Both the position numbers and the translations under genes were made by a program. Positions 3,641 to 40,485 of a stretch of 46,545 nt of DNA are shown here, in pieces (within the stretch, counting starts at the first letter, position 1; each line of letters starts with the position of its first letter). Below the pieces are notes generated by a model, which ran no database searches, was not told the DNA's origin, and saw only the letters and a list, made by a program, of their open reading frames with translations. Source of the DNA: a virus. The stretch covers positions 1 through 46,545 of IMG/VR virus record IMGVR_UViG_3300027976_000061, one strand, 5' to 3'.

Positions 3641-4189
3641 TTAATCTTTACCTTCAGTTTCATCAGGTTGTGGATAGTTTGCAGAATCGTCACTACTACT
3701 TTCCTTGCTCTTTCTAATTGACATAGCATCTATCGAAATTGATAAACTTCTTACGTTATCTACATCTTCAGGATTTGCTGTAAAATATTTGATTACCTTT
3801 TTAAGGTTCATATTCTGCTCGGTTCCGAATCCACCTGCTTCATCGATCTTTTCTCTTAAACTTTTAGTAGCATCCCAAGATCCAGCATAACTGATATTCC
3901 AGCAATAGAATTTTACTTCTTCTGACTTACTGTTATAGTAATGTGCAATATCTTGAATTTTCTGGATAGCTCCGTTTGCATCTCTATATGATAATGATGC
4001 TCCTTTATTATCAGCAGGAACTCCAAATTTAGTGCTATCTGGCATTATCTCCATTAGCTCTGATATTCTGCTAACTATCATATCTTCTGAATATCCTATT
4101 AGTGGTGATGTCTCTGCTTTTACAGCCTCGTCTTGTTCGTTCAATCTTTCGAACTTTTTAAAATTATTAACGCGATTCTTCACACTCAA
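3641..4189 (-). CDS. Putative prohead-targeted protein of unknown function
   Basis: A 182-aa protein of unknown family. The frame opens with TTG at 4189; a GTG at 4183 is an alternative that would give an N-terminus KNRVNNFKKFERLNE. That segment fits the T4-like capsid-targeting pattern, with predicted cleavage after LNE and before QDE. The body is soluble and mixed alpha/beta, has no membrane segment, and ends in an acidic tail rich in Ser, Asp and Glu. The upstream GATAAATAATAAAAA at 4191-4205, which overlaps the stop of the kinase gene, resembles the late-promoter variant seen elsewhere. The start codon is the least certain point. Confidence 0.6.
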   Translation of the reverse strand: MSVKNRVNNFKKFERLNEQDEAVKAETSPLIGYSEDMIVSRISELMEIMPDSTKFGVPADNKGASLSYRDANGAIQKIQDIAHYYNSKSEEVKFYCWNISYAGSWDATKSLREKIDEAGGFGTEQNMNLKKVIKYFTANPEDVDNVRSLSISIDAMSIRKSKESSSDDSANYPQPDETEGKD

Positions 4190-4200
4190 TGAATTTTTTA

Positions 4201-4791
4201 TTATTTATCAACAAAACTACCTAATAATTTATTGAATTCATATTGACTTTTAGTATTGAACATATTATTAAAGATAATATTTGAATTTCCAGCCTCGCGT
4301 TTGTCTATATACTCACTAAACATACTAAATAATTTATCAAATTCTTGCTTTTCTAGATTATAATTCTCATACTTGTCAAATATGTCCTTATTACCCCTGT
4401 TAAAATCTGATATCCCGTCATCTCTTGTTATATAAACTAATTTGCAGTTAGAATATAATTGACTATCTAATATCTTCATAAATTCAGTGATTAATTCATG
4501 TCTAATAAGTCTCTTTCTATATAAAGCCCACACATATGCTGAGAATATTGACCTATCTAATATTAATACTTTATCTTTAAATATAGTATTTCCCATTTCT
4601 AGAATTGTTAATATATTAGCTAGACTAAAATAATGAATAACTTCACCCTTTTCTTCAAGCCCAAGCGTTTCAACTAATGACGCAAAGTCCCATTTGTAAT
4701 ACATGAATCTATCATCATTATTTTGAGCGAAGAAATTGTCAATCAAATGCGACTTTCCCGCTCCACGGGGCCCCTCACATAATACTATCAT
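4201..4791 (-). CDS. P-loop nucleotide kinase, thymidylate/deoxynucleoside kinase-like
   Basis: A 196-aa P-loop protein with a Walker A at its extreme N-terminus (GPRGAGKS, residues 7-14), as in thymidylate and deoxynucleoside kinases. The segment KVLILDRSIFSAYVWALY (about residues 74-91) contains the DR(S/T/Y) motif of that family, and VYITRDD looks like the core strand before the lid. A role in phosphorylating dNMPs or deoxynucleosides for phage DNA synthesis is likely; substrate preference cannot be read. It starts at an ATG and the stop lies 11 nt before the next gene. It is transcribed away from the 4887 gene across a 95-nt AT-rich divergent intergenic region. Confidence 0.65.
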   Translation of the reverse strand: MIVLCEGPRGAGKSHLIDNFFAQNNDDRFMYYKWDFASLVETLGLEEKGEVIHYFSLANILTILEMGNTIFKDKVLILDRSIFSAYVWALYRKRLIRHELITEFMKILDSQLYSNCKLVYITRDDGISDFNRGNKDIFDKYENYNLEKQEFDKLFSMFSEYIDKREAGNSNIIFNNMFNTKSQYEFNKLLGSFVDK

Positions 4792-4886
4792 AATAATTTG
4801 ATTTGGTTTACATATAATATACTATAATAGCTTTCACTTAAATTAATATGTTTGATTTAATGAATAAATAAACAAAAAGAAGTTAT

Positions 4887-5363
4887 ATGCGTAAATATAT
4901 CCGTTTATATGAAGAATATACCGACCTTGAAGAGAAGAGTTTAGAAAAACACTACTCATGGCCCGACGTTCGTAATACAATACAATCTAAATTACCATAT
5001 ATCATTATTGACTTTAATACAGAGGAAGCATTGGATAAATGTATAAAGGGTGAATTATTTGATGAAAAATATATCAAACAAACATTCCATCTAAAGAGAT
5101 CTGATAATGCTGCTGATTTATATCCAAGTGTTTTTATATTCGGAGAAGGAACTGATCTTGATAAAAGAGTACGTAAACTAACCAAACGTTTTGATATTCT
5201 AAGAATTGTAATCGCGGAATATGGATCAAATAATCCAGACTTATACATTCAAGGAGAAAGAGTCGATATCGGTGAAAATCTATTTACGTCAAACAACATA
5301 GATGAACTTGATGGTGATGATTTCTACTCAATTGATTCAAAATACTACAAATTTATAAGCTAA
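4887..5363 (+). CDS. Hypothetical protein with possible prohead-targeting N-terminus
   Basis: A 158-aa acidic soluble protein of unknown family. Its first residues, MRKYIRLYEEYTDLEE, resemble the basic/aromatic leader ending in x-x-E found on many late proteins here, though the cleavage motif (DLEE) is weaker than FINE. It is the first plus-strand gene before uvsY and uvsW, with a 64-nt gap to the next gene. AATAAATAAAC lies about 20 nt upstream, matching the late-promoter-like variant. No domain is recognisable; the start is the first ATG of the frame. Confidence 0.55.
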   Translation: MRKYIRLYEEYTDLEEKSLEKHYSWPDVRNTIQSKLPYIIIDFNTEEALDKCIKGELFDEKYIKQTFHLKRSDNAADLYPSVFIFGEGTDLDKRVRKLTKRFDILRIVIAEYGSNNPDLYIQGERVDIGENLFTSNNIDELDGDDFYSIDSKYYKFIS

Positions 5364-7011: not shown

Positions 7012-7026
7012 TTCTTATGAATCTAT

Positions 7027-7034: not shown

Positions 7035-7052
7035 AAATAAAGATCATAAGTG

Positions 7053-8695: not shown

Positions 8696-8722
8696 CTAAA
8701 AGCTATTAGGACTGTGACTGAT

Positions 8723-15808: not shown

Positions 15809-17509
15809 ATGGCAGGATTTGGAGACAATAGAAGTGGAGGTACAAGTACCGCACTATCAAACTTAAGTAAATTTGGAACTCGATACGAGGATCTATTACT
15901 TAAGAATTCAAAAGCAATAGGATTCATCGAAAGTCAATTGGCATCGAGAACTCAAAGTAACGGAAATAATGAGTTGTTAAAATTCTCAATGGCGCTAGCG
16001 GATACTACGTCGCAATTAAGAACTAAAGCGATAGCATTCTTTCAGTTGGATTACTCAGTTAAGCGAGAAAGGTTAAGAGATATTGCATCTAATGGTGAAA
16101 TAGAATTTATCCTAGATACGATAGCCGATGATATGGTTGTATATAGTGATGAAAATAGATTTTGTCACGCTAATGATCTTACTGGTAAAATTATGTTTCA
16201 GGGTTCTAATAAAACCGAGAGATTAAATTATCAAGATAATATTGTTAAAAAGTATCAATCTACCTTCGAGGAAATGTATAACACATGGGGGTTTGCTGAA
16301 GGTATAGCAGCTTGGCAATATTCATATCAATTTCTTATAGAAGGTCATTTAAGTTTTGAAATAATTTATGACAATCCTGAAAAACCTAAAAAGATAATCG
16401 GTTTCAAAGAATTAGATCCAGCATCAATTGCACCCCAATTAAACAAAGATGCCAAGGGGAAAATGTATTTACAGTGGACTCAGTATGATCCGTCTACTGG
16501 AGGAACTAGGACATTATCTGATTCACAGGTTATTTACATATCATATGCTAATCACTTTAAAACAAAGAGAATATCATTTGTTGAACGTTTAATTAGGTCA
16601 TTTAACCTATTAAGAGTACTAGAACATAGTAAAGTAATATGGCATGTTATGAATGCACCAATTAGATTACAGACGAAAGTTCCAACCGGATCTAAATCTT
16701 TTCAAAAGGCACAAGAAGATGTTAAGGAATTTATGAATCTTTTAAAAGAGGATGTATTTTTCAATGGAGATACCGGAGAATTAACAGTAGACGGTAAACC
16801 TAATATATTATTCTATAAGAATTATGTTACTCCTGTTAATGATAGAGGAGAAGGAATATCAATCGAAGCATTATCATATCCCGGTCCGAATTTATCAAAT
16901 TCTGAATTACTTGGATATTTCACTAAGAAGTTGAAAATGGATTCTAAGATTCCGTATTCTAGATGGGAAGGTCAATCTGGAATGGGAGCATTTACATTAA
17001 ATGCTGAAGGTATTACTAGAGAGGAAGTTCGATATCAAAAGTTTATTAAAAGATTACGTTCTGCCTTCTCTGAATTAATGGTAAAACCATGGCACCTTCA
17101 AATGTGCTTAGATTTTCCATCACTAAAGGATGATTATAAGTTCAAAAATGCTATCGGAATAAATTATCACAACGATAATGTTTTCGAAGAAATGAAAGAG
17201 AATGAATTAGAAGCTAAACGTATTGCATCATTCACTGCTAAGAAAGGAGTACTTAGAGACGATGGCACACCTTACTTCTCCACTGAATATTTAATTAGGA
17301 AAGAACTTAGGATGACTAACGATGAAATTGAAGCTAATAAAAAATGGTTTGAAATGGAACAGGATGTAATAATCAAAGGAAATGAAGCAGCTGCTGCTGG
17401 GATGGCGGCAACTGGTGGAGCTGCTCCGATGGCTACTGCGGGAGAGGCCGAAGGGGGTGGCGGAGAAACAATCGAAGGCGGAGAAACCGGAGCAGCTGGT
17501 AGTCTATAA
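15809..17509 (+). CDS. 20: Portal protein, gp20-like
   Basis: A 566-aa portal protein. Typical gp20 traits are the helical N-terminal stem, the segment GFKELDPASIAPQ, the conserved YPGPNLSNSELLGYFTKKL, SRWEG before the EEVRYQKFIKRLRSAFSELMVKP crown helix, and YHNDNVFEEMKENELEAKRI near the C-terminus. It forms the dodecameric DNA gate at the packaging vertex. The last 45 residues are Ala/Gly/Glu-rich and low-complexity, an addition to the core. It ends ahead of a palindromic terminator. T4 gp20 is 524 aa, so the length fits. Confidence 0.9.
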   Translation: MAGFGDNRSGGTSTALSNLSKFGTRYEDLLLKNSKAIGFIESQLASRTQSNGNNELLKFSMALADTTSQLRTKAIAFFQLDYSVKRERLRDIASNGEIEFILDTIADDMVVYSDENRFCHANDLTGKIMFQGSNKTERLNYQDNIVKKYQSTFEEMYNTWGFAEGIAAWQYSYQFLIEGHLSFEIIYDNPEKPKKIIGFKELDPASIAPQLNKDAKGKMYLQWTQYDPSTGGTRTLSDSQVIYISYANHFKTKRISFVERLIRSFNLLRVLEHSKVIWHVMNAPIRLQTKVPTGSKSFQKAQEDVKEFMNLLKEDVFFNGDTGELTVDGKPNILFYKNYVTPVNDRGEGISIEALSYPGPNLSNSELLGYFTKKLKMDSKIPYSRWEGQSGMGAFTLNAEGITREEVRYQKFIKRLRSAFSELMVKPWHLQMCLDFPSLKDDYKFKNAIGINYHNDNVFEEMKENELEAKRIASFTAKKGVLRDDGTPYFSTEYLIRKELRMTNDEIEANKKWFEMEQDVIIKGNEAAAAGMAATGGAAPMATAGEAEGGGGETIEGGETGAAGSL

Positions 17510-17950: not shown

Positions 17951-18487
17951 TTAAAATAAATTTTTCATAACTTCTAAATCATTGTCTGACGCTCCATCTA
18001 GAGCATCAGTCCAATCTAACATACTTTTCAATTTACTATCTGTTAATACCCATCTTCCACTATCGTTCTTTTCACAATGTGCATTTAATATACCGGTTTG
18101 TCTTCCCCAATAATCTCCCCCACTAAGCATAGTAGATCCCATTCCTCTATCTTTAACTGAGTCGAATCCTCTTCTCGTAGTCACTCTAGCATCCTGATTT
18201 GTCGTCTTATCTAGTGTGTAATCTGTTCTAGATCTTTCGTTTCCTCCATGTTCATAGAAAAATCGCTGTACTTCACCGTGCTTTCTTCCTTTTTCTCCAG
18301 CTGAATATATAAACTTAAGCATGTTTAATGCTAACCCTGATTTATCATTTCTATATCGCTGCGGATTATCGCGCAGACTTGATTGATAATCTGTATCAAT
18401 GTAATTATCATGCATATCAGAAAACTTCTCTTTTTTCTCCTTTGCTTCGTTGATAAATTCAATGTATGTCTGTATATTGCGTTTCAT
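17951..18487 (-). CDS. Putative prohead-targeted protein (clear capsid-targeting leader)
   Basis: A 178-aa, basic/polar protein of unknown family. The N-terminus MKRNIQTYIEFINEAKE is the best match in the window to the T4 leader MKTYQEFIAEA: T-Y-x-E-F-I-x-E followed by Ala. Cleavage after FINE would leave about 164 aa. The body is rich in Arg, Asp and Gly (RSRTDYTLDKTTNQD) with no recognisable domain; its FIYSAGEKGRKHGEVQRFF segment looks like a small winged-helix. AATAAATAATATT occurs upstream. It is followed by gp25. Confidence 0.7.
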   Translation of the reverse strand: MKRNIQTYIEFINEAKEKKEKFSDMHDNYIDTDYQSSLRDNPQRYRNDKSGLALNMLKFIYSAGEKGRKHGEVQRFFYEHGGNERSRTDYTLDKTTNQDARVTTRRGFDSVKDRGMGSTMLSGGDYWGRQTGILNAHCEKNDSGRWVLTDSKLKSMLDWTDALDGASDNDLEVMKNLF

Positions 18488-19897: not shown

Positions 19898-20190
19898 TAT
19901 ACAGTAGGTGGAACCATAGCAGGAGCAGGAGCAGTCTTTACTGCATTTGCGTCTACTGAATTCTTCGCGGCTATTTTACCTTGTAGTGCTGTAACTAGGT
20001 CATTTAGTTGTTTTTTCTGAGTAGCAAGATTAGTCTCTATCTGAACTATAGAATTTCTATGCTGTGTTATTACGTCGTTCTCAGCTTTGAATTCATCCGG
20101 AACACTCATTATATCACGAGCTCCTTCTTGTTCTTCTATATAGTTAATTACCTTGTTACCCCATTTTTTAAAATTATCAATATGTCCCAT
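19897..20190 (-). CDS. Small coiled-coil protein, possible internal head protein
   Basis: A 97-aa protein. The first 25 residues (HIDNFKKWGNKVINYIEEQEGA) are basic/aromatic and include YIEEQ, a partial fit to the leader pattern. Residues about 40-75 form a heptad coiled coil (IVQIETNLATQKKQLNDLVTAL), and the tail is Ala/Pro-rich. It overlaps neighbours at both ends (14 nt and 1 nt), so it is in a tight operon. Function unknown. Confidence 0.55.
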   Translation of the reverse strand: MGHIDNFKKWGNKVINYIEEQEGARDIMSVPDEFKAENDVITQHRNSIVQIETNLATQKKQLNDLVTALQGKIAAKNSVDANAVKTAPAPAMVPPTV

Positions 20191-24922: not shown

Positions 24923-26704
24923 TTAGTTTAACTTATTTACAATCTTAATAAAAGTATCAAAATCGTAAACTACTGATTCACTTGCATTCATCTTATTATC
25001 TAGTTTACTTATTTTTCCTTTTAATTTTTCTTGTTTATTATCATGGCGTCCAGATTTTTTAGTATCTCGTTTTTCCTTACGTTTAGATTTCAACTCAGAT
25101 CTTAAATCCTTAGTATCTTCCTTTTCCTTTGCTAAATTATCTTCTGCTTCTTCTCCGGATGTTTTCTTAGCTTTCTCAGCATCTGCTTTTTCTTTATCCT
25201 CTCTAGCTTTCTCTTTATCAGCTTTCTCTTTATCAGCTTTCTCTTTATCAGCTTTTATTTTAACAAGTGCTGACTGAACCTTTTCATTGTCTATAATACT
25301 AGAAACATTTATATTTTCTTCCTTCTTATCTTTAGATTTAGTATTTATAACGGTAATTACCTTATCATCAATAACTTTAACCACAGTTCCACCTTTAATG
25401 TTTTTGTCATTAATATCTTTAATTAGTATAGATTCTTCATCGCTAACCTTATCAACGTCACTTTTTGCAATTATATAATCGTCTTCTTCTTCTGTAATTG
25501 ATTTCCATACGTCAAAGCTGGCAGCGATATTTTCATATATTCTAGGGTTAGCACCTTTAGCCTTGTACATATCTTCATTTCCACCACTAGTTGATGTTTT
25601 AGTTTTAACAACATCTTTAGTTTTAGCAGGTTCACTTATTACTTTCCAGTAAACGTTAGATCCAACCTTAAAATTAGAATCTCCAGTAGATTTAAATTTA
25701 TCATATTCAGCTTTACTTGCGGCATATGAGTTATTAATAAATGAATTATCAAATTTACCTTTGACATCTAAATCAAATTTGGATGTTTTACCGTATTTCT
25801 CTCTTAATTCAGCCGTTGAATTTGCCCATACTCTATATGCATCTCCATCTTCTTGAGTTTTAAAAGCCGACTGATTTACTGCAAGTGCGGTCCCAGCCCG
25901 GTCGGTTGCCGATCTAGGTGCTACTTTTGCGGCGGCTCCTAATGCTGCGTTTGCGGCGGCTCCTAATGCTGCGCCTGCATTTGCAGGGCGTGCGTTTGCA
26001 GAGCGTGCGTTTGCAGAGCGTGCGATTGCAGCGGATGTTCTTCCTGTTACCTTTTTTCCAAGATTCTTAATGTCTTGATATACACCTTCCTCAATTGTTC
26101 CTGAAATTCCAGCAGATGTACCTGGATTTTTCATCTGTGCATCCATATCAACTGTAACTTCTGTGGTATCACTATCTGTTGTTAAATTAACATTTGATTC
26201 CTTCCATATTTCTAAGCTATGTTCTTTTCCAGTATGTGTCTTAACTCCAACTCTAATTCTATCATCCTTATTATCAGCAGATGCTAACCATCTATTTAAT
26301 TCATCCTTACTTGTATCAAGTAATACATAAACTCTATCATTTATACCAGCTGGTGTTAGTTGAACCTCAGAAGAAGCTCTTTCTTTTTTGGTTGATATAC
26401 GTATCATTAAGTAAACCGGTTTTCCGTCCAACATTGATGCTCCTCCAATTGTCCCATCGTTACCTATTACCGTAGTTGGAACCTGTGATATCCACGGATT
26501 AACTCCTTCCTTAGTTCCGGTACTGTTTAATAGCATATTAATACTATCAACATTATCTTCAGTTATAGCAAATGCATGAAGCTTTCCTGTGTTCTGAGTA
26601 TCTTCACTCTGTACCACAGGAACGTCTGCATTTATATCCTGATTAATAGGCTCAGTATTTGCCTGCTCGTATAATCCTGTTAATTGATTGAATTTAGACT
26701 TCAT
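24923..26704 (-). CDS. Large low-complexity protein with prohead-type leader
   Basis: A 593-aa protein. The leader KSKFNQLTGLYEQANTE would be cut after LYE (residue 13). Residues about 60-180 form a beta-rich domain (VYLMIRISTKKERASSEVQLT). Residues about 220-270 are repetitive Ala/Asn/Arg/Ser (ARSANARSANARPAN; AALGAAANAALGAAAK). Near residue 490 ADKEKADKEKADKEKA forms a charged coiled coil, then a Lys-rich segment. It ends ESVVYDFDTFIKIVNKLN. Mosaic make-up suggests an internal or ejection protein. It diverges from the 26755 gene at a palindromic promoter region. Confidence 0.6.
   Translation of the reverse strand: MKSKFNQLTGLYEQANTEPINQDINADVPVVQSEDTQNTGKLHAFAITEDNVDSINMLLNSTGTKEGVNPWISQVPTTVIGNDGTIGGASMLDGKPVYLMIRISTKKERASSEVQLTPAGINDRVYVLLDTSKDELNRWLASADNKDDRIRVGVKTHTGKEHSLEIWKESNVNLTTDSDTTEVTVDMDAQMKNPGTSAGISGTIEEGVYQDIKNLGKKVTGRTSAAIARSANARSANARPANAGAALGAAANAALGAAAKVAPRSATDRAGTALAVNQSAFKTQEDGDAYRVWANSTAELREKYGKTSKFDLDVKGKFDNSFINNSYAASKAEYDKFKSTGDSNFKVGSNVYWKVISEPAKTKDVVKTKTSTSGGNEDMYKAKGANPRIYENIAASFDVWKSITEEEDDYIIAKSDVDKVSDEESILIKDINDKNIKGGTVVKVIDDKVITVINTKSKDKKEENINVSSIIDNEKVQSALVKIKADKEKADKEKADKEKAREDKEKADAEKAKKTSGEEAEDNLAKEKEDTKDLRSELKSKRKEKRDTKKSGRHDNKQEKLKGKISKLDNKMNASESVVYDFDTFIKIVNKLN
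25206..25250 (-). repeat. 15-bp tandem repeat, three perfect copies
   Basis: Unit GCTTTCTCTTTATCA (plus strand) repeated three times, encoding ADKEK/KADKE units of the coiled coil in the 593-aa protein. Confidence 0.85.
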
Positions 26705-26754: not shown

Positions 26755-27783
26755 ATGAACAAATATATTTTACCATACTCTAATAGTGTTAACGAATCTA
26801 TCGGAATAGGGTCAGTTGTCCTAATTAAAGGAAAACCTACTAAGATTGGAAGGTTCTTATATGTCACAACAATCAAAGGTTTCGTAGAAATTAAACCTGG
26901 AATAAAAATGGTATTCGTAGACGATGTTGTATACAGAGTATTTCATAAGGGTGGAGATAAATTTTCAGGCAGGAAAATAGATTACAGAGGAGAGGACGGA
27001 CTCAAAGGAGTATTTAATATGAAAAATCCAGGTAAACCTAGTGTTGTGCTTAATCATAATAAAACGCCATTTCACTGGATAACTGTTGAATATTTAGATA
27101 TAGGATCAGCATTAAGAGCAGTTGGACCTAATTTATTTAGTCATGAATTAATATTATTAGAATCAGCTACGTTAGATCCTGATATTGAAGCAAAAAACTT
27201 TGTATTGCGAGAAGTTACTAAGTTATTATTAGGCATATCTAATATATTTAAGTTAATTGATGTTGAAGTGGAAGAGGGTGGAATCAATTTAAATGATATT
27301 GATATGTGGGATACCTCACTATCGATAGATGATAATGAAAGAAGCGGGTCATTGACTGGTTATGACACATTGGTTCACTTAATATTAACTACTACACCAA
27401 ATCAGGTTCCTAGTGAACATCTTAATTATTTATATAACATAGGAATGCTTCCGTTAGGACTTGGATTTGAAGAATTAGACAACGAAGACAGAATGTTATT
27501 AGGAGCAGAAGATACAAGTCACGGCTATGTGTCAATATCATATGAGACAGATGCACATATTGAATATAATGACGTTGCGTTAGAAGTATATGACTCTTCA
27601 TCAAGATTAGTATCAACTGATTCTGGTAAAAATATATTATATACAGCATTTGCAATTGACGGAGAGCAAGTAGATGCTCCGAATGATATAGTATCAGATT
27701 TAAAATTATATGACCGTACTTTATTGTCTTCACTTCCATCTGATATAGTAAATGATTTAACTAAATTAATAAGTGATAATTAA
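26755..27783 (+). CDS. Hypothetical protein with prohead-type leader
   Basis: A 342-aa protein. The N-terminus NKYILPYSNSVNESIG ends VNE followed by Ser (residue 14), matching the leader pattern. The rest is acidic, with beta-rich and helical parts (RFLYVTTIKGFVEIKPGIKMVF), no catalytic motif and no membrane segment. Unlike most leader-bearing genes it lies on the plus strand, but an AATAAATAA element sits directly upstream. A virion role is inferred from leader and promoter alone. Confidence 0.6.
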   Translation: MNKYILPYSNSVNESIGIGSVVLIKGKPTKIGRFLYVTTIKGFVEIKPGIKMVFVDDVVYRVFHKGGDKFSGRKIDYRGEDGLKGVFNMKNPGKPSVVLNHNKTPFHWITVEYLDIGSALRAVGPNLFSHELILLESATLDPDIEAKNFVLREVTKLLLGISNIFKLIDVEVEEGGINLNDIDMWDTSLSIDDNERSGSLTGYDTLVHLILTTTPNQVPSEHLNYLYNIGMLPLGLGFEELDNEDRMLLGAEDTSHGYVSISYETDAHIEYNDVALEVYDSSSRLVSTDSGKNILYTAFAIDGEQVDAPNDIVSDLKLYDRTLLSSLPSDIVNDLTKLISDN

Positions 27784-30364: not shown

Positions 30365-30869
30365 TAAATATATTAAGTAGGTTATCAATATTTGGATTAC
30401 TGTTGCTTATACATATGTCTCCCATTTCATCACTTACACATGTGACGTCATCGACATTTTTTAATTTATTCCACACTTTATCGATTATTGGATTTTGACG
30501 TCTGCCTTTACCTGAATATAAATGACCTGCCCAGTTTACTAGGCTTCTGTATATTTTAGTTCCCAACCCAATACCTCTTAATTCTTCAGCTAGACTAATA
30601 TGAATTTGATAAAATGTGTTGTGTATTAGCTGTATATCTACTACTATACCCTTACTAATTTCGTCAGTAAATGGCTGAGATGATTTTAACCATATTATTA
30701 CATTACCGTCATTTCCAAACTCTTCCCAATCTAAATCCGTCCACTCAATTAGTTTAACATCAGCAATGTCAGCATCACTAATTGATATCTGATCTGGGAT
30801 ACGTAGCCCAACTGACTCAATATTATTATGAGTAGATTCCCACATTGAGTAGTTAAGTATACTAGTCAT
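30354..30869 (-). CDS. GNAT-like acetyltransferase
   Basis: A 171-aa protein. The core LAEELRGIGLGTKIYRSLVNW (about residues 93-113) has the acetyl-CoA loop R-G-x-G-x-G/A, and IHISL before it is the preceding strand. The N-terminus SILNYSMWESTH carries the LNYSxF/W leader motif but no clear (I/L)xE site. Possible substrates are proteins or small molecules of host or virion. It overlaps the 30869 gene stop by 1 nt, within a late minus-strand run. Confidence 0.55.
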   Translation of the reverse strand: MTSILNYSMWESTHNNIESVGLRIPDQISISDADIADVKLIEWTDLDWEEFGNDGNVIIWLKSSQPFTDEISKGIVVDIQLIHNTFYQIHISLAEELRGIGLGTKIYRSLVNWAGHLYSGKGRRQNPIIDKVWNKLKNVDDVTCVSDEMGDICISNSNPNIDNLLNIFTID

Positions 30870-31225
30870 TAAGCTAATCCCTTTTTAGACGCTTTCTTGT
30901 TCATCACCATAACTGCTTCCTTTAATTCAGAGCTCCAATCAGATAATTTAATAAATCCATCTTGCCAAGGTATTCCATTTTTAAGTTCTTCAAATCCACT
31001 GTGGCTTTTAATATCGGAAGTAGCATTTCTGATATCCTCTTTAATTACATCATAGCTTTCTTGATCAACAGGATTAGCACTATTAATCATGCTAATTAAA
31101 TCCTTAAGCATCGCGATTAATTCAGCCTCTGGCGTATTTCCTTCTCCGTATAATCTAAACGGTCTGTCGTCATCATTCTCATTAACTTTATTAAATTCTT
31201 TAAAACCTCTTATAACTTTATTCAT
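30869..31225 (-). CDS. Small protein with prohead-type leader
   Basis: A 118-aa protein. Its N-terminus NKVIRGFKEFNKVNENDD fits the leader pattern with cleavage after VNE (residue 16). The body is helical and mostly acidic (LIAMLKDLISMINSANPVD). It overlaps the 31218 gene by 8 nt and the 30354 gene by 1 nt. Function unknown. Confidence 0.6.
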   Translation of the reverse strand: MNKVIRGFKEFNKVNENDDDRPFRLYGEGNTPEAELIAMLKDLISMINSANPVDQESYDVIKEDIRNATSDIKSHSGFEELKNGIPWQDGFIKLSDWSSELKEAVMVMNKKASKKGLA

Positions 31226-34200
31226 CTTTATTTGACTTTTTTAATGCTTCTAAATATGTAATTGAATCTTGAATATTATCTATCATCTTCTTAGAATCCA
31301 CTTTTAATTGTTCTATTGTTTTACCTCTTGATCTTCTTGTATATCGTTCCCGATCTGATGCCGATGCATTTGTCATACTTCTAAATATTTTAACAAAACC
31401 ATCTTCGCGTCGTCTGGTACCAACTATTATACTGTCAATTACTTTATCTGTATATAGATTTGATCCTTCAAATAATATTTTAAAATATCTAGCAGCTTCA
31501 GTATTTGAACATCCCTTTTCCTTAAATCTATCAAGAATAGCTTCTCGTGCAGCTTGTGCTCCATTTGAATTCTTTATTTCAGTAGCTAATAATCTATCAA
31601 CTGTAGAATCTCTTCTAAAATCTTCTCCAACAAAGGAAGCAATGTTTGCTCTCTTCTCAGTTCTCATTATGATGTCAACGGCTGCTGTTCCTAGGCTACT
31701 ACCATCTCCTCCATGTACTTGTTTATAGAACGGAGTTACATCTTTAATTAATTCAGCCTCACTTGGAATAGCTGCGATTATTTGAGCTTGGTCATTCTTT
31801 GGAATTCCAAAATAATCTAAGTATGTTACTAGTTCACTTCCCATGTCTGATTTAATATCAGCATCGTCTTTTCTATGAGCGTGCGTTACTTGTCCAGATG
31901 TGTCTACTGTTATTCCAATTAGGTGCATTTGATCAGACGTAGGTTTAGTATAATCAAAGAATACATATTGTACACTTCCATTATTGTTATTATTAACATA
32001 TGAATAGAACATTCCATGACCTCCTGGATATCTAGATGGTAGTAAGCACCATGATGTTGATGCACATACCATTCCGAGAGTCTCTGGTGATCTAAATACC
32101 GATAGCAGTTTATCCTTATCTTCCCATATTACGCTTGCACCTGGATCATTATTTTCAATCTTTGTTATAATCTCGCTAAGATCTGATCCAAGTCCATCAA
32201 TTTTATTATTTAAACCATCTCTAATTTCTTCTAGTGATTTAAATTTACTAAGTTTCCTTTTAAATCCATTAACTTCTCTGCCGCTGGGATCAGCGTTTGC
32301 TAATTCCGCAGCTGCACTTATTATTTCCATTTGTAATTCAGGATCTGCGTCCTGAAACGCTTGTTTTTGATTAAATGGAACTACATTCGGTATAGTTATT
32401 CCTCTATAATCTCTAGTTCCGGCGTTATTAGTAAATGCTTTAACTATCCATCTCCCGATTGCTCTTGATTTCAATGATGTAAGATCATCTATTAATATCT
32501 CATATCCAGGACGGTCTCCGGATTCAGGTTTCAACGCTGCGTATTCGTCGACGGTTCTAGGTAATTCTCTAATAACCGATTTTAACTGTTGGTCGGTTAA
32601 CATATTAAGAATAGATGTTAGAATATTAATACTTGCACCTTGTTCCATATTGAATTTCAAAAATGGAACTGCATATCCTGGTAAATTATATTGCTCTATT
32701 AACGATCTAATGCTAATCCATTCTGGATCACTTTCTAATCTAAGTTTCTCTGCATCCGTTAATTTATATGAGTCAAAGCCCGCGGCTTCAGCTTTAAGCT
32801 TAATGAAATATTGCTTAGCTGTGCTTATGTTCTCGTTTACAGATATCTCCACTTTTTTTTTAAATTGATTAAACGAACTAATATGAGAATATTTAGACTC
32901 ATTAATTTTTTTAATCAATTTAATCCTAAGAGATTCTTTTAAGTATGACGCTAATCTTCTTACTTCTTCCATATCTCTTGCATCTAATGCATCATCAATG
33001 AGATTTTGTAATTCAGAATTAGACATTGCTTTAAATGATTCATCGTCGCTGATAACGGGCGAAGGCGAAGATCGACCATAGTCGTCTACTTCGAAGTCCT
33101 CTTCCTCATCGTCTTCATAAGAAGAAATACCGTCGGCTTCCCATTCTTTAATTTCTTCGACTACTTCATCAATTAAATCTTGAGCTTTTCCTATAGATGA
33201 GTCATCTTCCATTAGAATAAGTCTAATTAATTCAAGGAATTCAGCTGCTGGTAATGCAATCAACTTGCCATAAAAATGTTCTTTAAGATTATCGATTTCA
33301 TCGCTTTCTCTGAAATTTGATATAAATGTATTTAAATCTTCTGCAATATATGGTCCATATCTTAAATCTTCTAATTCTCCTGCTAGGTTATCAGTATTCA
33401 TGATAACTACTTGAGCTATTGCCTCATCTTCAGGTATTCCTATTGAAGTAATAAGTTGATATATACCCTTAACCGTTTCATGAATTAACATTGCAAAATC
33501 TAATCCTCGTGCTTTGATAACCGGATTAACCTCGTTAAATAATTCTTCAACATCGGCTGCGTTGTCCAAGATATCATCTCCTGTTTCTAAGCTAGCGATA
33601 ATATCTTCTGCTGATTTAGTTTCTTCTTCTTCAACTTTGTCTTCCTCCCAATCAACTGATACGGTTCCCGCAAATCCATCTTTAGATGCCCACATTCCCT
33701 TTTGTCTATCAATTGGAATAGCCCAATCAAAGAAAGCAGCAATATTTGTAATATCAGATAGTAAACTAATCATAGTTGCACCATCATCATCTCCAAATAT
33801 ATCCTTAAGTCCATCTGCTATAAATGGCATGTTTAATATAAGCTTGGTATTTTTAGCCTCTCCTTGTGTAATATTATTCGTGATCTTTCGTTTTTGTATT
33901 TCCTTTATTATAATAGGATCTGTAATTCTTTCTTGTTCAGCTGGTGGTTCCATCTCAACCTCTTCCATCTCATCCTTCATTTCCTCTTCTTCTGGAAACT
34001 TAATATCTAACTTAACTCCATTTAAAATCGAGCCATACATTTCTCTTATTGATGCTTCGGCTAGCTCTTCTAATTCGCGTTCTTTACCCGCCTGTAATTG
34101 TTTAACTTGATTAACTAATTCCATGAATTGATTAATCTTATTTCCATATCGAGTTTGAGTACTCTGCATTGATGATTGAGCCCTATTCTCAATACCACTT

Positions 34201-34574
34201 AGATATTTATCTTGATCATCTCCTTCAGCTTCTCCTGGCATTCCCGGATTACCTTCTAATGATGCTTCATAAATATATTGAGCAAATCCCTTAACTATTT
34301 GAGATTCATCCATTTTGTATTTACTTGCTAATAATTCTAAGTTAAATTCAATAACTCCACCTGCTGACTTAAGTTCAGTAATAAATCTGTCATATATATC
34401 TTCTGCGGATGCCATCGGCTTAGGTTTAACGCTAGGTTTATCTCGTCTAATTGGTGATGGTCCTCTCCTAACAGGAGTCTTAGTAGGTGATGGAGTCTTA
34501 GTCGGCGCAGGTTTAGTTCCTGGATCAGCCATGAATGCTTCATCTATCCGTTTAATATATTTACGTTTAATCAT
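31218..34574 (-). CDS. Large 1118-aa probable virion/ejection polyprotein with prohead-type leader
   Basis: The largest protein in the window. The leader KRKYIKRIDEAFM is predicted to be cut after IDE (residue 12). Residues 16-55 are Pro/Lys/Arg/Ser/Thr-rich. Residues about 60-540 are helical and acidic. An internal leader-like block has KLIKKINESKYS (cut after E559) and FKKKVEISVNENIS (cut after E581), so processing may split the chain. Residues about 820-905 contain CASTSWCLLPSRYPGG, a Ser-Trp-Cys domain seen in other phage proteins, followed by YVFFDYTKPTSDQMHLIGI. A TATAAATA element lies upstream. Likely internal or ejected protein; enzymatic role unknown. Confidence 0.6.
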   Translation of the reverse strand: MIKRKYIKRIDEAFMADPGTKPAPTKTPSPTKTPVRRGPSPIRRDKPSVKPKPMASAEDIYDRFITELKSAGGVIEFNLELLASKYKMDESQIVKGFAQYIYEASLEGNPGMPGEAEGDDQDKYLSGIENRAQSSMQSTQTRYGNKINQFMELVNQVKQLQAGKERELEELAEASIREMYGSILNGVKLDIKFPEEEEMKDEMEEVEMEPPAEQERITDPIIIKEIQKRKITNNITQGEAKNTKLILNMPFIADGLKDIFGDDDGATMISLLSDITNIAAFFDWAIPIDRQKGMWASKDGFAGTVSVDWEEDKVEEEETKSAEDIIASLETGDDILDNAADVEELFNEVNPVIKARGLDFAMLIHETVKGIYQLITSIGIPEDEAIAQVVIMNTDNLAGELEDLRYGPYIAEDLNTFISNFRESDEIDNLKEHFYGKLIALPAAEFLELIRLILMEDDSSIGKAQDLIDEVVEEIKEWEADGISSYEDDEEEDFEVDDYGRSSPSPVISDDESFKAMSNSELQNLIDDALDARDMEEVRRLASYLKESLRIKLIKKINESKYSHISSFNQFKKKVEISVNENISTAKQYFIKLKAEAAGFDSYKLTDAEKLRLESDPEWISIRSLIEQYNLPGYAVPFLKFNMEQGASINILTSILNMLTDQQLKSVIRELPRTVDEYAALKPESGDRPGYEILIDDLTSLKSRAIGRWIVKAFTNNAGTRDYRGITIPNVVPFNQKQAFQDADPELQMEIISAAAELANADPSGREVNGFKRKLSKFKSLEEIRDGLNNKIDGLGSDLSEIITKIENNDPGASVIWEDKDKLLSVFRSPETLGMVCASTSWCLLPSRYPGGHGMFYSYVNNNNNGSVQYVFFDYTKPTSDQMHLIGITVDTSGQVTHAHRKDDADIKSDMGSELVTYLDYFGIPKNDQAQIIAAIPSEAELIKDVTPFYKQVHGGDGSSLGTAAVDIIMRTEKRANIASFVGEDFRRDSTVDRLLATEIKNSNGAQAAREAILDRFKEKGCSNTEAARYFKILFEGSNLYTDKVIDSIIVGTRRREDGFVKIFRSMTNASASDRERYTRRSRGKTIEQLKVDSKKMIDNIQDSITYLEALKKSNKDE

Positions 34575-36092: not shown

Positions 36093-38183
36093 TTATATTT
36101 TAAAATCATGTAGTATTTCCTGGAACATTGTAATAAATGGTCTAATTGCTAACGCATTTTCTCTGTATTGCTGGCCGCCATCTCTTTTAAACTTGATTGC
36201 GTCACCCATAACAGTCTTAGCTAATTGACTGATTGCCTGAGATGAATCGTGCACTTGTTTAACATGTGATCCAACCTCGCCACTGTCAATTTTCCTATCT
36301 TCAACTAAATCCAGGCAGTATGCTGTCCAATTTAAATATTGTTTTGTCTTCATGTTGCTACCCATTCCTTCTATTGCTGATAATATTAAGCTTAAAATCT
36401 TTTCTCTCTCGGAAGTATTTACCGGTGGTATATTAAGAAGTGGCCTAACTCTACTAGTAGATTTATCCTTAAATATGTTTTCTATCTTTTCATTAATCGT
36501 ACCGTCTGCGTCACTATGTCTTGCTAGAATTTTAACATAACTCATAAAATCATCTGCTGCTGATTTACCAACAACATCACCTAATTCCATTGCCGCTATT
36601 TTTGAATCTCGTTTATCTGCTAATAAGTAAGGTAATGCGTCTACTCCATTCATTCTAGTATCTCTATCTGAATCTTCAGGTAATTGACTTTGATATTTAT
36701 CCTGAGATAAGAACATATCATATATAGTTCCCCAAGCGGCTGCCCAGTTTCTAGGTGTTGGAAATCCAACCGATACTCCTTCTCCTCCTGCACTTAGTTT
36801 AGCTTTATCATATCTATAAAACTGATTGAATTCAGTTTTTATTGGATCTCCTTCTAAATCAAAATATTCAGGATTACCCTTACCTGATTCAGTATGTTTG
36901 ATGTATGCAAAAAATTCATTCGGCACGTAAAATTCTTTTACTGGTTTACTTTCTCCTTCTGGAAAAAAGAATCCTTTATCACTTCTTGCCCATTTTATCC
37001 AGTCCGATATTGTTGGAACTAAATGTACATGTCCTCCTAAGAATCTAGATGCAACTGCTGCTTCCAATGGCTTAACCGGTCCGTCCATTTCTCTATTACC
37101 AGCTGCCCATATTCTCCATCCGGCTGGCATATTATATTTACCACCTGCTGCTTCTCTATCTAATAGTAATGTAAGTGAAGCGGCTAACATATCTGGATCT
37201 GCTCTGTTGATCTCATCAAAGAATAAAATACCTTCTTCTGTATCTTGTACTCCTGGTAACCAACCTGGAATAGTAGATCCCTGTTGAACTTTACCTTTCA
37301 TCGAATCTGGAAATACCATTTTTGTTGTACCTTCTCCTCCGGCAGATGCATCAAATAGTAAAGGAACTCCTCCTAGGTCAGTTGGCATCATCTGTGATAA
37401 CGTAACAATCATTACTGGTAAATTGCTAACTCCATTAGCTGCTGCTATTTTACGTGCAGCCTGCTTAACAATTTGAGTTTTACCTATACCAGGTGCTCCC
37501 CAGATCATAACGTTTTTTCTAGATCTCATGTTGTAATTCCTTACTAATTTATCAATTAACATATCTGGAGTATATACATTCACTTCATCTTTTGTACTTG
37601 ATCGAGGTGGTCCTAATGTGAATTCATCACCATTTTGTTCGTATATTCTATTAATGTACTTAAGTTTTTTACTCTCAGCCATTGCATATTCTGGTTCTAA
37701 CTCTAATTCGTGATTGACATTATCATATTCTTCATCTTCAATGTATTGTCCGTCATTGTAATCGCCACTAAGCATTTCTGGGAAAAAACTTTCAATTATT
37801 TCTTCATGTAATGGATCTTCCCATTCCGTTAACCATGATGGTTTCATTCCTAGTCTAATTGCTTTGTTTGAATTTATTCTCCATGCTCCTTTTCCAATAT
37901 ACCAGTCTCCATCCTTTCTAAGTTTACCCTGATCTAATGCTTCACGTTTCTTCCAAGCATCTTGCCATGCTGAAAGAGCAGCTGCTCCTCTTGTTAATAT
38001 GCTATTTAAGTTAGATGATGCTTTAGACTCAGATGATTTAGTTCTAAGTTCTGCTAAATAAGTCTCAGCTAATTCAGGCGATCCATCGTGTACTATATAT
38101 AAACCGTCATCTGTTTCACTTGAAACCTGTTCATTTAATGATATTGATTCTCTCCTAAAGTTTTTATAATTACTAATATGCAT
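36093..38183 (-). CDS. MoxR-family AAA+ ATPase with prohead-type leader
   Basis: A 696-aa AAA+ protein. The leader has NYKNFRRESISLNEQVS (cut predicted after LNE, residue 18), and a second leader-like block AESKKLKYINRIYEQNG ends IYE near residue 182. The AAA core follows: Walker A GAPGIGKT (229-236), Walker B ILFFDEI (319-325), sensor-1-like WAAGN, and an arginine finger region AVASRF (about 376-381). MoxR ATPases act as chaperones with VWA proteins. Here the next two genes are a VWA protein and a zinc-metallopeptidase, so a three-part complex is likely. First 180 residues are unassigned. Confidence 0.85.
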   Translation of the reverse strand: MHISNYKNFRRESISLNEQVSSETDDGLYIVHDGSPELAETYLAELRTKSSESKASSNLNSILTRGAAALSAWQDAWKKREALDQGKLRKDGDWYIGKGAWRINSNKAIRLGMKPSWLTEWEDPLHEEIIESFFPEMLSGDYNDGQYIEDEEYDNVNHELELEPEYAMAESKKLKYINRIYEQNGDEFTLGPPRSSTKDEVNVYTPDMLIDKLVRNYNMRSRKNVMIWGAPGIGKTQIVKQAARKIAAANGVSNLPVMIVTLSQMMPTDLGGVPLLFDASAGGEGTTKMVFPDSMKGKVQQGSTIPGWLPGVQDTEEGILFFDEINRADPDMLAASLTLLLDREAAGGKYNMPAGWRIWAAGNREMDGPVKPLEAAVASRFLGGHVHLVPTISDWIKWARSDKGFFFPEGESKPVKEFYVPNEFFAYIKHTESGKGNPEYFDLEGDPIKTEFNQFYRYDKAKLSAGGEGVSVGFPTPRNWAAAWGTIYDMFLSQDKYQSQLPEDSDRDTRMNGVDALPYLLADKRDSKIAAMELGDVVGKSAADDFMSYVKILARHSDADGTINEKIENIFKDKSTSRVRPLLNIPPVNTSEREKILSLILSAIEGMGSNMKTKQYLNWTAYCLDLVEDRKIDSGEVGSHVKQVHDSSQAISQLAKTVMGDAIKFKRDGGQQYRENALAIRPFITMFQEILHDFKI

Positions 38184-38208
38184 ATTAATGTAGTTTTATT
38201 TTTATTAT

Positions 38209-39372
38209 TTATTTAAAGAATTTATCTGAATCTAGGAAAATCGGAATTTTCTCTCCTGGAAAAAGATCAACTATTTCATTATAACTATTAACACTCAGTC
38301 CCCTAGATGGGAATATAATCCCAAATATAGTATTATTTGGATCTAATACATCAGATGAAAGTTTCTGAGTTTCTCCGCTCTTATGATCTTGTATCATTCC
38401 ATCTGTTAAATGGATCGTGAACTTTTTAATCCATCCCTTCTTCTTCATTAATCTATATACTGAATTTACATCGTTTCCTCCACCTACCCAGTTGTCATTA
38501 AGGTCCTTTAATATAGTAGGAAATGTTTTAGATGTTACATTTTTATATGTTTGATGATAATATGCGGTGCTTGTCCATAATATCATATTGAGTTTCTTAA
38601 TCTTAGCTGCTTCTAGTGCACGCTGTACCTCTGTCATTATAATTAATAACTCAGCATAGCTTAAACTTGAACTTGTATCAATTATAAGATTTGTTTCAGG
38701 CAGTGTATCTTTGGCGATGGTTTTACTTGTTATTCTATTTCTCATCATTTTGTTACCAACAAAACTTCTATGATATGGCTTTCTACTTGCCATTTCATTC
38801 GAATAAGCTGATAATCGTGTTGAGAACAATTTTGCCCAATCAGTTTTAGATTTTCCCTCCATTACTAATCTATCTCTAAATCCTCCAGCGGAACTACCAC
38901 CTGTACCTTTCTCATCGTCGGTTTTTGATTCTCTTCCTCTAGGTTGCATTTGAATAACTTCACGATTTGCTTGTTCAATAGCTGCTTCTATTTCTCCATA
39001 TGTTCGATTTTCCTGCTCATCTGCGATATCCCCATTTACACCGGGTATTTCTCCTTCGCCATCAACTAGCTCTCCAGGTTCTCCATCACCATCTCCTCCA
39101 CTCTGTCCCTTATTCCACTCATCTGCATTTCCCAATTGTTCGCGCATTCGTTTGATATAATCGTCTGCTAATCTTTCATCTCTACGCAATGTTGTGTTTC
39201 CGGGGCCAGCATTTGGATCTGGTGTAGGTTCAGTCGCGCTCGGTGATGAATTAGATTGAGGATCTTCTCCTTGTCCTAATGATGATTCAGGCGAAACGTT
39301 AGTACTCGATCCTTTGCTCTTGTCTGATTCTTTATTAACACGACTTAATCTATTTACTTTTGATGTTCTCAT
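38209..39372 (-). CDS. VWA-like domain protein (DUF2201-type C-terminal half)
   Basis: A 387-aa protein. Residues about 20-165 are disordered and low-complexity, rich in Ser, Gly, Asp and Pro. The C-terminal domain has the MIDAS-like IIDTSSSLSYAEL (DxSxS), GGGNDV, and IHLTDGMI, as in VWA domains that partner MoxR ATPases. The leader RTSKVNRLSRVNKESDK ends VNKE and only weakly fits the targeting pattern. In bacteria the metallopeptidase and VWA halves of DUF2201 are usually one chain; here they are adjacent genes with a 3-nt gap. Partner of the MoxR protein. Confidence 0.75.
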   Translation of the reverse strand: MRTSKVNRLSRVNKESDKSKGSSTNVSPESSLGQGEDPQSNSSPSATEPTPDPNAGPGNTTLRRDERLADDYIKRMREQLGNADEWNKGQSGGDGDGEPGELVDGEGEIPGVNGDIADEQENRTYGEIEAAIEQANREVIQMQPRGRESKTDDEKGTGGSSAGGFRDRLVMEGKSKTDWAKLFSTRLSAYSNEMASRKPYHRSFVGNKMMRNRITSKTIAKDTLPETNLIIDTSSSLSYAELLIIMTEVQRALEAAKIKKLNMILWTSTAYYHQTYKNVTSKTFPTILKDLNDNWVGGGNDVNSVYRLMKKKGWIKKFTIHLTDGMIQDHKSGETQKLSSDVLDPNNTIFGIIFPSRGLSVNSYNEIVDLFPGEKIPIFLDSDKFFK

Positions 39373-39375
39373 TGT

Positions 39376-40485
39376 TTATATGTTATTTAGCCAATTACTT
39401 TCTCCGTATAATTCAATACGTGCTTCTGAATCACTAATGGGATCCCATTGAACATCATCTCCTGCTACATTAGTAACTCGACCATATTCTCCAGTATCAT
39501 TATCTTTAATTATATCTCCAGATTTTAGGGGTCTGTCTTCATCTCCGTTATCACCATCATCTCCGTTATCTTCCGATCCTTCATCTCCGTTATCTTCTGA
39601 TCCTTCATCTCCGTTATCACCATCATCTCCGTTATCTTCCGATCCTTCATCTCCGTTATCTTCTGATCCTTCATCATCTCCTGTTTCTTCTTCTTCTTCT
39701 TCTTCTTCTTCGCCTCTCTCTTCTCTAATTTGATTTTCCATATCTCGAAATAATTTCCAAAATATTCTGTCCGACGTACTATTTTCAAAAAACTCTACAT
39801 CTTCAGCTGGTACGAAATGTCCTTCGTATAAATCAACACCGCCTGGCATTAATACAATTTTAGTTTCTGCACGTAATATTCTATTGATTTCATAATCTTG
39901 AGCAAGATTCCATAGCGTAAATATTTGTTGTTGTGATAGATAATCTGATTGAATATCTTTTCTAGTTCTGCTGAAATGTTTTAATGAATTATGTAATATC
40001 TCATGTATGATTACAAAGGTAGCATAATCACTATACCATCTTGTGCCTTTGATAGTAGCAGCAAGTGCTCCTCTTTTCTTCTGATCATCTGTTATTTCAG
40101 AAGCAAAATTCCTTTTACCTTCTTCATATGATATAATAACGAACCTGGGATCATAATATATAGCAGATCCGCTAGTTGACATTGTTCCAATTCCATCTTG
40201 TGATTTAGATCCTGCTCCAAATACTGGAACGGGTGGCATTATATTAAGATATGGTTTGAACCATTCAAAATGTTTCACTATCTTAAGTTTAGCAAGCTGC
40301 ATAATTTTTTCAGATTTAGCAAGAGCCTCTGCATTACTAAGTGCGATTGCCGCCGATCTAATTGGATCACTACTCGAAGTTGTATTATTTTGCTCATTCA
40401 TACGAAGCCATAGTCCAAATCTCAATACATCAGTATCTATCTTTTCTTGTAGCTTAATATATTGGTCGAATTTTAAAGTATCCAT
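39376..40485 (-). CDS. Putative zinc metallopeptidase (DUF2201 N-terminal type) with acidic repeats and prohead-type leader
   Basis: A 369-aa protein. Its leader DTLKFDQYIKLQEKID could be cut after LQE (residue 14), and WLRMNEQNN offers a second site (residue 31). The catalytic HEILH sits in FVIIHEILHNSLKHFS (about residues 157-172), followed by NLAQDYEINRIL, which supplies the third metal ligand region in this family. Residues about 255-320 are acidic repeats of GSEDNGDE units. The last 45 aa (KSGDIIKDNDTGEYGRVTNV) look like a small SH3-like beta domain. Partner of the VWA and MoxR proteins. Confidence 0.75.
   Translation of the reverse strand: MDTLKFDQYIKLQEKIDTDVLRFGLWLRMNEQNNTTSSSDPIRSAAIALSNAEALAKSEKIMQLAKLKIVKHFEWFKPYLNIMPPVPVFGAGSKSQDGIGTMSTSGSAIYYDPRFVIISYEEGKRNFASEITDDQKKRGALAATIKGTRWYSDYATFVIIHEILHNSLKHFSRTRKDIQSDYLSQQQIFTLWNLAQDYEINRILRAETKIVLMPGGVDLYEGHFVPAEDVEFFENSTSDRIFWKLFRDMENQIREERGEEEEEEEEETGDDEGSEDNGDEGSEDNGDDGDNGDEGSEDNGDEGSEDNGDDGDNGDEDRPLKSGDIIKDNDTGEYGRVTNVAGDDVQWDPISDSEARIELYGESNWLNNI
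39541..39672 (-). repeat. 66-bp perfect tandem duplication
   Basis: Two identical adjacent 66-bp copies (39541-39606 and 39607-39672) encode a 22-residue acidic unit of the metallopeptidase. Perfect identity suggests recent expansion. Confidence 0.92.

Follow-up and report, generated by a model that had tools for sequence, protein, structure and literature searches.

The closest described counterpart of the leaders reported here is that of the bacteriophage T4 internal protein IPIII, which begins MKTYQEFIAE followed by A and whose leader, in a passage of PMC9026906, acts in targeting mainly through residues 4 and 7 and in processing through residues 8 and 10. We analyzed the 46,545-base virus record IMGVR_UViG_3300027976_000061 (hereafter the window, meaning this whole stretch of DNA), a fragment of a T4-like giant phage with 32% GC, in which many otherwise unrelated proteins begin with a leader of this design. 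Counted from its glutamate as position 0, the main form in the window and its relatives reads, in its commonest residues, I K S/T F/Y x Q/E F/Y I N E, then A, S, N or G. Positions 4, 7, 8 and 10 of IPIII fall on positions -6, -3, -2 and 0 of this form and carry the same residue classes: aromatic, aromatic, aliphatic and glutamate. The sequence comparisons that follow give good support to reading these as T4-type capsid-targeting leaders. We consider it highly probable that such a system has expanded in this clade, and we propose that it works by imitation of the head scaffold.

The search for relatives was anchored on the portal gene:

15809..17509, plus strand: T4 gp20-type portal protein (Pfam Portal_T4, E 5.3e-66)

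This domain places the window among T4-like phages with a gp20 portal. The named phages with the nearest portals are LR756500 (37% identity) and LR756501 to LR756504 (32 to 34%), along with Lak phages, Tenacibaculum phage PTm1 and Sphingomonas phage PAU. From viral contigs we retained 80 loci with a related portal out of 168, their identity ranging from 59 to 100%. The clade set comprises the window and six related contigs (G005, G009, G010, G023, G026, G029); a further contig, L020, is near-identical to the window and contributes one row to several orthologue families. Phage G was scanned over the first 220 of its 497 kb, and LR756501, LR756502, LR756504 and Lak-A2 were sampled at 200 kb each, chosen around the portal or protease. 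The 58 genes of the window were called from ATG alone, in the longest frame available.

An aliphatic residue two positions before a glutamate is common in this DNA: a single [ILVM]xE occurs in 31 of 58 window N-termini and in 171 of 452 internal stretches, which could suggest that the leaders reflect chance or gene-start composition. Fuller motifs argue otherwise. A regular expression (regex) shaped on the T4 leader, with called N-termini compared to internal stretches of equal length, matched 8/58 window genes versus 15/452 internal stretches (p 6e-4), and none of 200 shuffles scored as high. Enrichment was also found in G005 (20/158 versus 43/1374), G023 (27/221 versus 38/1044), G026, G029, G009 and LR756500, and weakly in G010 (p 0.018) and T4 (p 0.048); it was not significant in phage G (11/286 versus 64/1857), PAU or PTm1. 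Among 310 geometries that set two aromatics and an aliphatic ahead of a glutamate, scanned with scaffold proteins removed, the layout (-6,-3,-2,0) ranked first in the window and six contigs (57/1920 versus 63/14674 internal, ratio 6.9, p 6.7e-29), although the clade contigs share homologues and such p-values overstate independence. The second layout in the clade was (-8,-5,-2), the FxxWxxLNE form. The (-6,-3,-2) layout ranked third in LR756500 and 115th in T4 plus phage G.

A leave-one-contig-out leader profile, with genes counted at a score of at least 11, gave the same picture. Trained on the six related contigs and not the window, it recovered 6/58 window genes against 0.5 expected. The other counts were 10/157 in G005 (0.3 expected), 12/245 in G026 (0.4), 8/162 in G009 (0.1), 12/155 in G029 (0.7), 8/87 in G010 (0.6) and 21/221 in G023 (0.9), so that all seven clade contigs exceed expectation, as does LR756500 (24/664, 1.5 expected). 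T4 yielded 4/254 (0.7 expected), PAU 2/289 (0.6) and PTm1 1/299 (0.2); the first 220 kb of phage G yielded 0/286 against 0.7 and no protease match. The window genes 3641 and 20177 are missing from the held-out six because the caller used only ATG starts and the longest frame; with corrected starts they score 20.0 and 20.4 on a profile trained on all seven contigs.

Orthologues keep the leader. Distinct N-termini carry the core motif in 31/34 cases for gene 19256, 9/9 for 17951 and 10/10 for 3641, versus 0/43, 0/47 and 0/29 in the control families 18503, 17572 and 10825, which have no leader. For these counts the start nearest the aligned one was chosen for each homologue, and rows with incomplete starts were kept in leader and control families alike. 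By their bodies, the 115 tagged proteins group into 82 families. For homologues in other genomes, the score is at least 7 in 96 of 144 cases when the protein is tagged, and at least 10 in 49 of 1701 when it is untagged. From these families together with the shuffles, the internal stretches, the layout scan, the held-out profile, the phage G result and a prediction described below, we count chance or start composition as refuted. We also rejected the idea that tagged genes are less conserved accessory genes, since homologues elsewhere in the genome set exist for 58/91 of them and for 556/885 others, which is no difference.

The leaders that carry this signal in the window, with their scores, are as follows.

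18446..18487, minus strand: leader MKRNIQTYIEFINE of gene 17951-18487 (held-out profile 22.0; one of its nine distinct N-termini is a near-identical copy of the window's)
19853..19897, minus strand: leader MKNIKAKSFGDFINE of gene 19256-19897 (held-out profile 22.4; one of its 34 distinct N-termini is the window's)
4136..4183, minus strand: leader MKNRVNNFKKFERLNE of gene 3641-4183, GTG start (profile 20.0; core motif in 10/10 orthologues)
20483..20518, minus strand: leader MNIKKFNVFINE of gene 20177-20518 (profile 20.4)
31178..31225, minus strand: leader MNKVIRGFKEFNKVNE of gene 30869-31225 (held-out profile 16.9)
26755..26796, plus strand: leader MNKYILPYSNSVNE of gene 26755-27783 (held-out profile 13.8; [ILVM]xE in 8/8 orthologues)
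40393..40485, minus strand: leader MDTLKFDQYIKLQE and a second predicted cut, LRMNE (residues 14 and 31), of gene 39376-40485, a DUF2201_N metallopeptidase (held-out profile 12.0; Pfam DUF2201_N E 6.3e-12)
38130..38183, minus strand: leader MHISNYKNFRRESISLNE of gene 36093-38183, a MoxR-like AAA+ ATPase (held-out profile 11.4; Pfam AAA_5 E 7.1e-10)
37638..37685, minus strand: internal leader-like site LKYINRIYE (Glu 182) ahead of the AAA+ domain in 36093-38183 (seen by eye; missing from the profile's list of internal sites)
20835..20867, minus strand: leader MRYIKLDRLNE of gene 20520-20867 ([ILVM]xE in 9/9 N-termini, one of them the window's; profile 9.5)
20131..20190, minus strand: probable leader MGHIDNFKKWGNKVINYIEE of gene 19897-20190 (profile 5.6; orthologues)
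26666..26704, minus strand: leader MKSKFNQLTGLYE of gene 24923-26704 (profile 9.6, held-out 7.0; G005 counterpart MSSKFNEQTGLYE)
24839..24916, minus strand: possible long leader, LNYSTF then SSYLNE, of gene 23678-24916 (from sequence; profile 5.7)
30837..30869, minus strand: possible leader MTSILNYSMWE of gene 30354-30869 (from sequence; profile 4.0; G009 homologue with YKLWE before S)
4887..4913, plus strand: probable leader MRKYIRLYE of gene 4887-5363 ([ILVM]xE in 13/14 orthologues)
22324..22356, minus strand: possible leader MNKIKKHRVAE of gene 22000-22356 ([ILVM]xE in 4/6 N-termini by regex)
22356..23069, minus strand: protein with LNYSEF near its start and no Glu (cut motif in 0/22 N-termini, at least 2 of the 22 rows incomplete)

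In all, 19 candidate leaders were listed, 11 of them scoring at least 9.5 on a profile whose training included the window. On the profile alone 31218 (5.4), 23678 (5.7) and 30354 (4.0) are weak; orthologue evidence adds 19897 and 4887 and, less surely, 22000 and 14231. The N-termini of the 19897-20190 family read ITE, LTE, IEE, VEE or LEE before Q in 8/8 cases by eye and in 3/8 by regex. The profile fits the leader of gene 36093-38183 best in a register that closes on RRE (residue 12), whereas the end quoted before was SLNE (residue 18). Resemblances seen in two proteins of the list, of 23678 to a phosphoribosyltransferase (by eye) and of 30354 to GNAT (E 0.23), stay unproven.

A preliminary description of this DNA had read a family of T4-like capsid-targeting leaders from the window, and enrichment over shuffles and internal stretches (regex, layout scan and held-out profile), the T4-like layout and the orthologues bear it out. 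All twelve leaders it quoted are present in the sequence, and its start at 20518 is correct even though the longest open reading frame there opens at 20605. Some details change. Its gene 3641-4189 does carry a leader; the start given at 4189 is a TTG, and a GTG at 4183 yields MKNRVNNFKKFERLNE, which matches the orthologues. The NSVNE it placed in the region of 26777 exists and belongs to the plus-strand gene 26755-27783. The LNYSxF sub-motif recurs at 23069 and 24916, but at 30869 only as LNYSMW, and its figure of about fifteen tagged proteins is fair only if orthologue evidence is counted, with 11 of 19 candidates reaching profile 9.5.

The leaders could instead be some other N-terminal address, for example to a compartment of the infected cell, with a glutamate that is not a cut site. 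The protein at 22356-23069 fits such an address in that it keeps the aromatic part without the Glu (0/22, some rows incomplete); its presumed relatives in G023, G010 and G026 have a leader-like site near residue 150, and it is possibly targeted without being cut, or a core part. However, the leaders match T4 position by position, their Glu is retained in orthologues, and a profile trained on the seven contigs without T4 blindly recovered IPII and IPIII (18.2 each) among its top three T4 matches, behind gp61.1 (20.1). We therefore regard another address as very improbable. In 49 of 57 leaders the Glu lies at residues 10 to 16, as expected of short N-terminal leaders, and across all (-6,-3,-2) leaders at residues 10 to 26, counted within the first 30 residues only.

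The protein that outscored IPII and IPIII, T4 gp61.1 (NC_000866, 18966-19130, minus strand), is a 54-residue hypothetical protein starting MKTFKEFIKE, and its sequence makes it a candidate internal head protein of T4. Other wordings of the leader occur elsewhere. LR756500 carries a version of the layout, MKYIKEYEEF[IL]xE, on many genes; five of its tagged proteins (13446-14282, 14298-15077, 180972-181730, 198758-199531 and 331856-332545) have six relatives each in the set, and the one of these that was scanned is a leucine-rich repeat (LRR) protein (E 1e-33). Many PAU genes start MKT[LI]xxLYE or LFE, such as 100248-101696 and 106051-113735, several with a second site LNE. In the major capsid protein, five clade sequences share an alignment column with PLFE or AINE, a candidate cut site, but T4 gp23 aligns poorly there and this is a hint only.

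The protease that would cut these leaders had been placed outside the window, and indeed Peptidase_S77 has no match within the 46.5 kb. As most of the genome lies outside this fragment, the search turned to relatives. There a gp21-type protease was found in 13 of the 30 related contigs, with every match above the Pfam cut-off and five of the six fully analyzed contigs among them, and in 8/8 named relatives, 5 of them over the cut-off. In 12 clade contigs and in LR756500, LR756501, LR756502 and LR756504 it is fused to a long scaffold part made of chained 14-residue repeats, for example INYSEYLAESLDKN. Fifteen sequences have 8 to 12 repeats; one with 7 is a copy from a locus that ends early. Most repeats place an aromatic at -6, an aromatic at -3, an aliphatic at -2 and a Glu at 0, which is the leader layout. 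In five clade contigs the motif occurs 9 to 11 times in the scaffold and at most 3 times in any other protein; in LR756500 the figures are 4 and at most 2. In the LR756501, LR756502 and LR756504 samples the scaffold has 15, 12 and 12, and other proteins have at most 3 except one in LR756501.

Because the protease-fused scaffold is a chain of 8 to 12 repeats in the layout of the tag, we propose that the tag imitates one scaffold repeat (aromatic, two residues, aromatic, aliphatic, one residue, Glu). A freshly synthesized protein would dock by the -6 and -3 aromatics of its tag on the scaffold core while the head is growing, and the head would close around it. A T4 gp21-type serine protease would then cut after the Glu and free the protein inside the head, from which it could leave with the DNA on ejection. 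In this giant T4-like clade, the tag has spread over dozens of unrelated proteins. A more specific form of this proposal, in which the address is a detached layout copy of the scaffold repeat, one protease both dissolves the scaffold and frees the cargo, and dozens of proteins are loaded, some fused as polyproteins with internal addresses as cut sites, comes close to an even prospect in our judgment but falls short of it. The sequences show the tags with their layout and conservation, as well as the protease and the repeats of relatives; docking, cutting, packaging and ejection are inferred, the last three from T4. The imitation is a new proposal, and besides the layout it draws on a prediction.

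Before sequences were fetched, we predicted that LR756501, LR756502 and LR756504, as phages with a repeat scaffold, would be rich in leaders and that Lak-A2 would not; LR756500 was already known to be rich. The prediction held. The 200-kb samples gave 19/240 (0.7 expected), 13/237 (0.8) and 13/243 (0.8) genes at a score of at least 11, and (-6,-3,-2) ranked first of 310 layouts in all three. Lak-A2 gave 0/284 (0.6 expected, rank 28) under code 11 and 1/200 (0.4 expected, rank 72) when TAG was read as Q.

Several observations weigh against our interpretation. Some concern the leaders: 48 of 144 homologues of leader proteins score below 7, and internal leader sites, which we had considered as a mark of leader proteins, were rejected as such at 2/17273 positions versus 35/184633 in other proteins. 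Others concern the scaffold. A profile built from scaffold-repeat letters does not pick out N-termini (window 2/58 versus 1.3 expected, G023 2/221 versus 4.9), so that the likeness is one of layout and not of letters; the scaffold prefers Tyr or His at -3 and Ala at -1, the leaders mostly Phe or Tyr and Asn. The scaffold is not the sole multi-copy protein in LR756501, as protein 21458 of its sample (1691 residues) has 7 motif copies. An AlphaFold2 model renders the repeats as one long helix (residues 289 to 441) at a pLDDT below 50, which proves little. MA9V-2 has 9/263 tagged genes versus 0.5 expected, yet no motif copy in its whole 1207-residue protease frame, and T4 also has a few leaders without such repeats; repeats thus accompany rich tagging but are not required for it. 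Conversely, 121Q carries the protease but none of these leaders, PTm1 has one leader, and PAU has a different one. The phages with repeat scaffolds are mutually related, so the prediction was partly carried by kinship. A list of 62 virion proteins from phAPEC6 was uninformative here, since 121Q, called the same species in the phAPEC6 paper, is without these leaders.

What the leaders carry bears on where the tagged proteins end up. Two window enzymes have leaders. The protein at 36093-38183 is a MoxR-type AAA+ ATPase by its AAA_5 domain and a match to phrog_1297 ATPase (E 5e-40), and that at 39376-40485 has a DUF2201 metallopeptidase domain. Between them, 38209-39372 has no leader; its DUF2201 VWA-like match (E 0.26) lies below the cut-off, and a phrog_1314 match (E 5e-12) spans the region. 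The MoxR and DUF2201 genes form one run of three in the window and stand side by side in LR756500, where the fused DUF2201 protein starts MKYIKSYENFIFE (profile 19.4) and the AAA+ neighbor starts MSFKNFTQYSEHISINLLAE, a leader seen by eye and unlisted by the profile. DUF2201 homologues in phage G, nACB1, phiFa and VEc25 begin at the domain without a leader, which marks the leader as an added piece.

The pair need not be an injected effector: it may be an assembly chaperone and peptidase working in or at the prohead. Part of PMC7824862 proposes a role in virion assembly for the phage MoxR-vWA-metallopeptidase module of other jumbo phages, and the adjacency of the two genes here and in LR756500 suits it. 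Yet a removable leader that leaves the enzyme in the head fits delivery equally, and a DUF2201 family that lacks the leader in other phages would not need a head location for its general role. We hold an assembly role for the pair to be a serious possibility, though we lean to the doubtful side.

More broadly, most tagged proteins could be parts of the prohead core or scaffold that are cut up and lost in maturation, leaving few as cargo of the mature head; T4 gp67 and gp68 are described as core parts in passages of PMC9026906 and PMC5694885. Several small tagged proteins (19256, 20177, 20520) are indeed encoded close to the portal, relatives of 22356 carry an internal leader-like site, and among 30 large tagged proteins of relatives, hand-picked from a longer list and scanned against Pfam, 26 have no family over the cut-off. 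The remaining 4 match CHAP, peptidoglycan-binding, DUF2201 and LRR families, and these domains, together with the tagged AAA+ and DUF2201_N metallopeptidase, are at odds with a core role. So are the 82 families, many for a core, and the AlphaFold2 model of the 3641 protein, whose body is a well-predicted fold that begins after a leader of low confidence; the fold has no confident match among solved structures. We judge a predominantly core role unlikely and favor capsid targeting of cargo. The preliminary description had gone on to a large ejected proteome. That step we infer only, because some tagged proteins may be degraded prohead core parts and few have a recognizable domain.

One tagged protein of the window appears to combine several cargo genes. 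The protein at 31218-34574, 1118 residues long, has its counterpart in three genes that stand apart in LR756502 (98, 489 and 620 residues) and likewise in G023 (90, 502 and 503 residues, with the third gene on the opposite strand), and in both genomes all three begin with their own leader or a leader-like sequence. The window protein has these sites:

34539..34574, minus strand: first leader MIKRKYIKRIDE (weak profile 5.4; the segment resembles small separate genes of G023 and LR756502)
34266..34313, minus strand: internal leader IVKGFAQYIYE (Glu 103; profile 20.2; homologues MQNKVFDFKSFINE and MKNFSKFLEE begin here)
32832..32879, minus strand: second internal site SSFNQFKKKVEISVNE (SVNE, Glu 581) at the join to the third part (weak profile 6.0)

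The first part is short and proline-rich, and aligns with scores of 116 and 86 versus shuffle maxima of 55 and 54. From these alignments the protein appears to be a fusion of three cargo genes that retains their former addresses as cut sites. Support is strong for the first join and weaker for the second, which rests on a G023 gene and a profile score of 6.0: the G023 protein 82568 starts at this join (21% identity) with its own leader-like sequence, and the third LR756502 gene aligns only from its residue 72. The fusion may also be an assembly error. By peptide patterns, 36093, 31218, 39376 and 23678 had no relatives in viral contigs; relatives of 31218 and 36093 were later found in the phage collection.

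The window holds other features beside the leaders. A DNA/RNA non-specific endonuclease at 29609-30364 (Endonuclease_NS E 3.1e-46) is without a leader and has a hydrophobic stretch near its start. At 5860-10017 a helicase-like frame is seemingly split, by eye, by endonuclease-like genes (7050-7862, 8714-9691) and intein-like stretches, and the protein at 45597-46109 is coded in part by 18-base tandem repeats. No tRNA genes were found within the window.

If the leaders act as proposed, they offer a sequence-based route to cataloguing the possible head contents of giant T4-like phages, proteins mostly of unknown function that are likely to act first in infection. They suggest that dozens of proteins travel in such phages and may be injected. 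They also offer a testable answer to how a ten-residue tag targets a T4-type head: its layout is that of the scaffold repeat. Among the matches listed in a search of the open-licence literature, no title or abstract opening dealt with leader families in huge phages or with a likeness between leader and scaffold repeat.

Set against known systems, the window's leaders are most like those of T4 IPII and IPIII with their gp21 maturation: they are N-terminal, with an aromatic pair, an aliphatic and a Glu, and a gp21-type protease occurs in clade relatives. They differ in extent. T4 has 4 genes at a profile score of at least 11, whereas clade contigs have 6 to 21, LR756500 has 24 and the 200-kb samples of three other huge phages have 13 to 19. 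In the relatives, protease and scaffold form one protein, the scaffold being a chain of 14-residue repeats in the leader layout, whereas no T4 protein has more than one motif copy. SPN3US and phiKZ also have head proteins that are cut by a prohead protease, and some are ejected, according to passages of PMC5694885. The same passages give propeptides longer than 100 residues for several of them and different cut motifs, whereas the leaders here are short, and with the Glu at residues 10 to 26, in a count over the first 30 residues, the (-6,-3,-2) leaders are not phiKZ-type propeptides of about 100 residues or more.

The window also shares with the group 2.2 jumbo phages, in their MoxR-vWA-metallopeptidase module, an AAA+ gene near a DUF2201 metallopeptidase; unlike that module, its AAA+ protein and peptidase bear leaders, which the DUF2201 homologues in four other phages do not. 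PAU resembles it in having a short leader on many genes and a gp21-type protease, but the leader wording differs and the PAU protease, at 246 residues, is not fused to such repeats. LR756500, LR756501, LR756502 and LR756504 share with the window its portal and a leader-rich proteome, and with its clade relatives the repeat-scaffold protease; they differ in leader wording, as in the MKYIKEYEEF of LR756500, and their portals are 32 to 37% identical to the window's.

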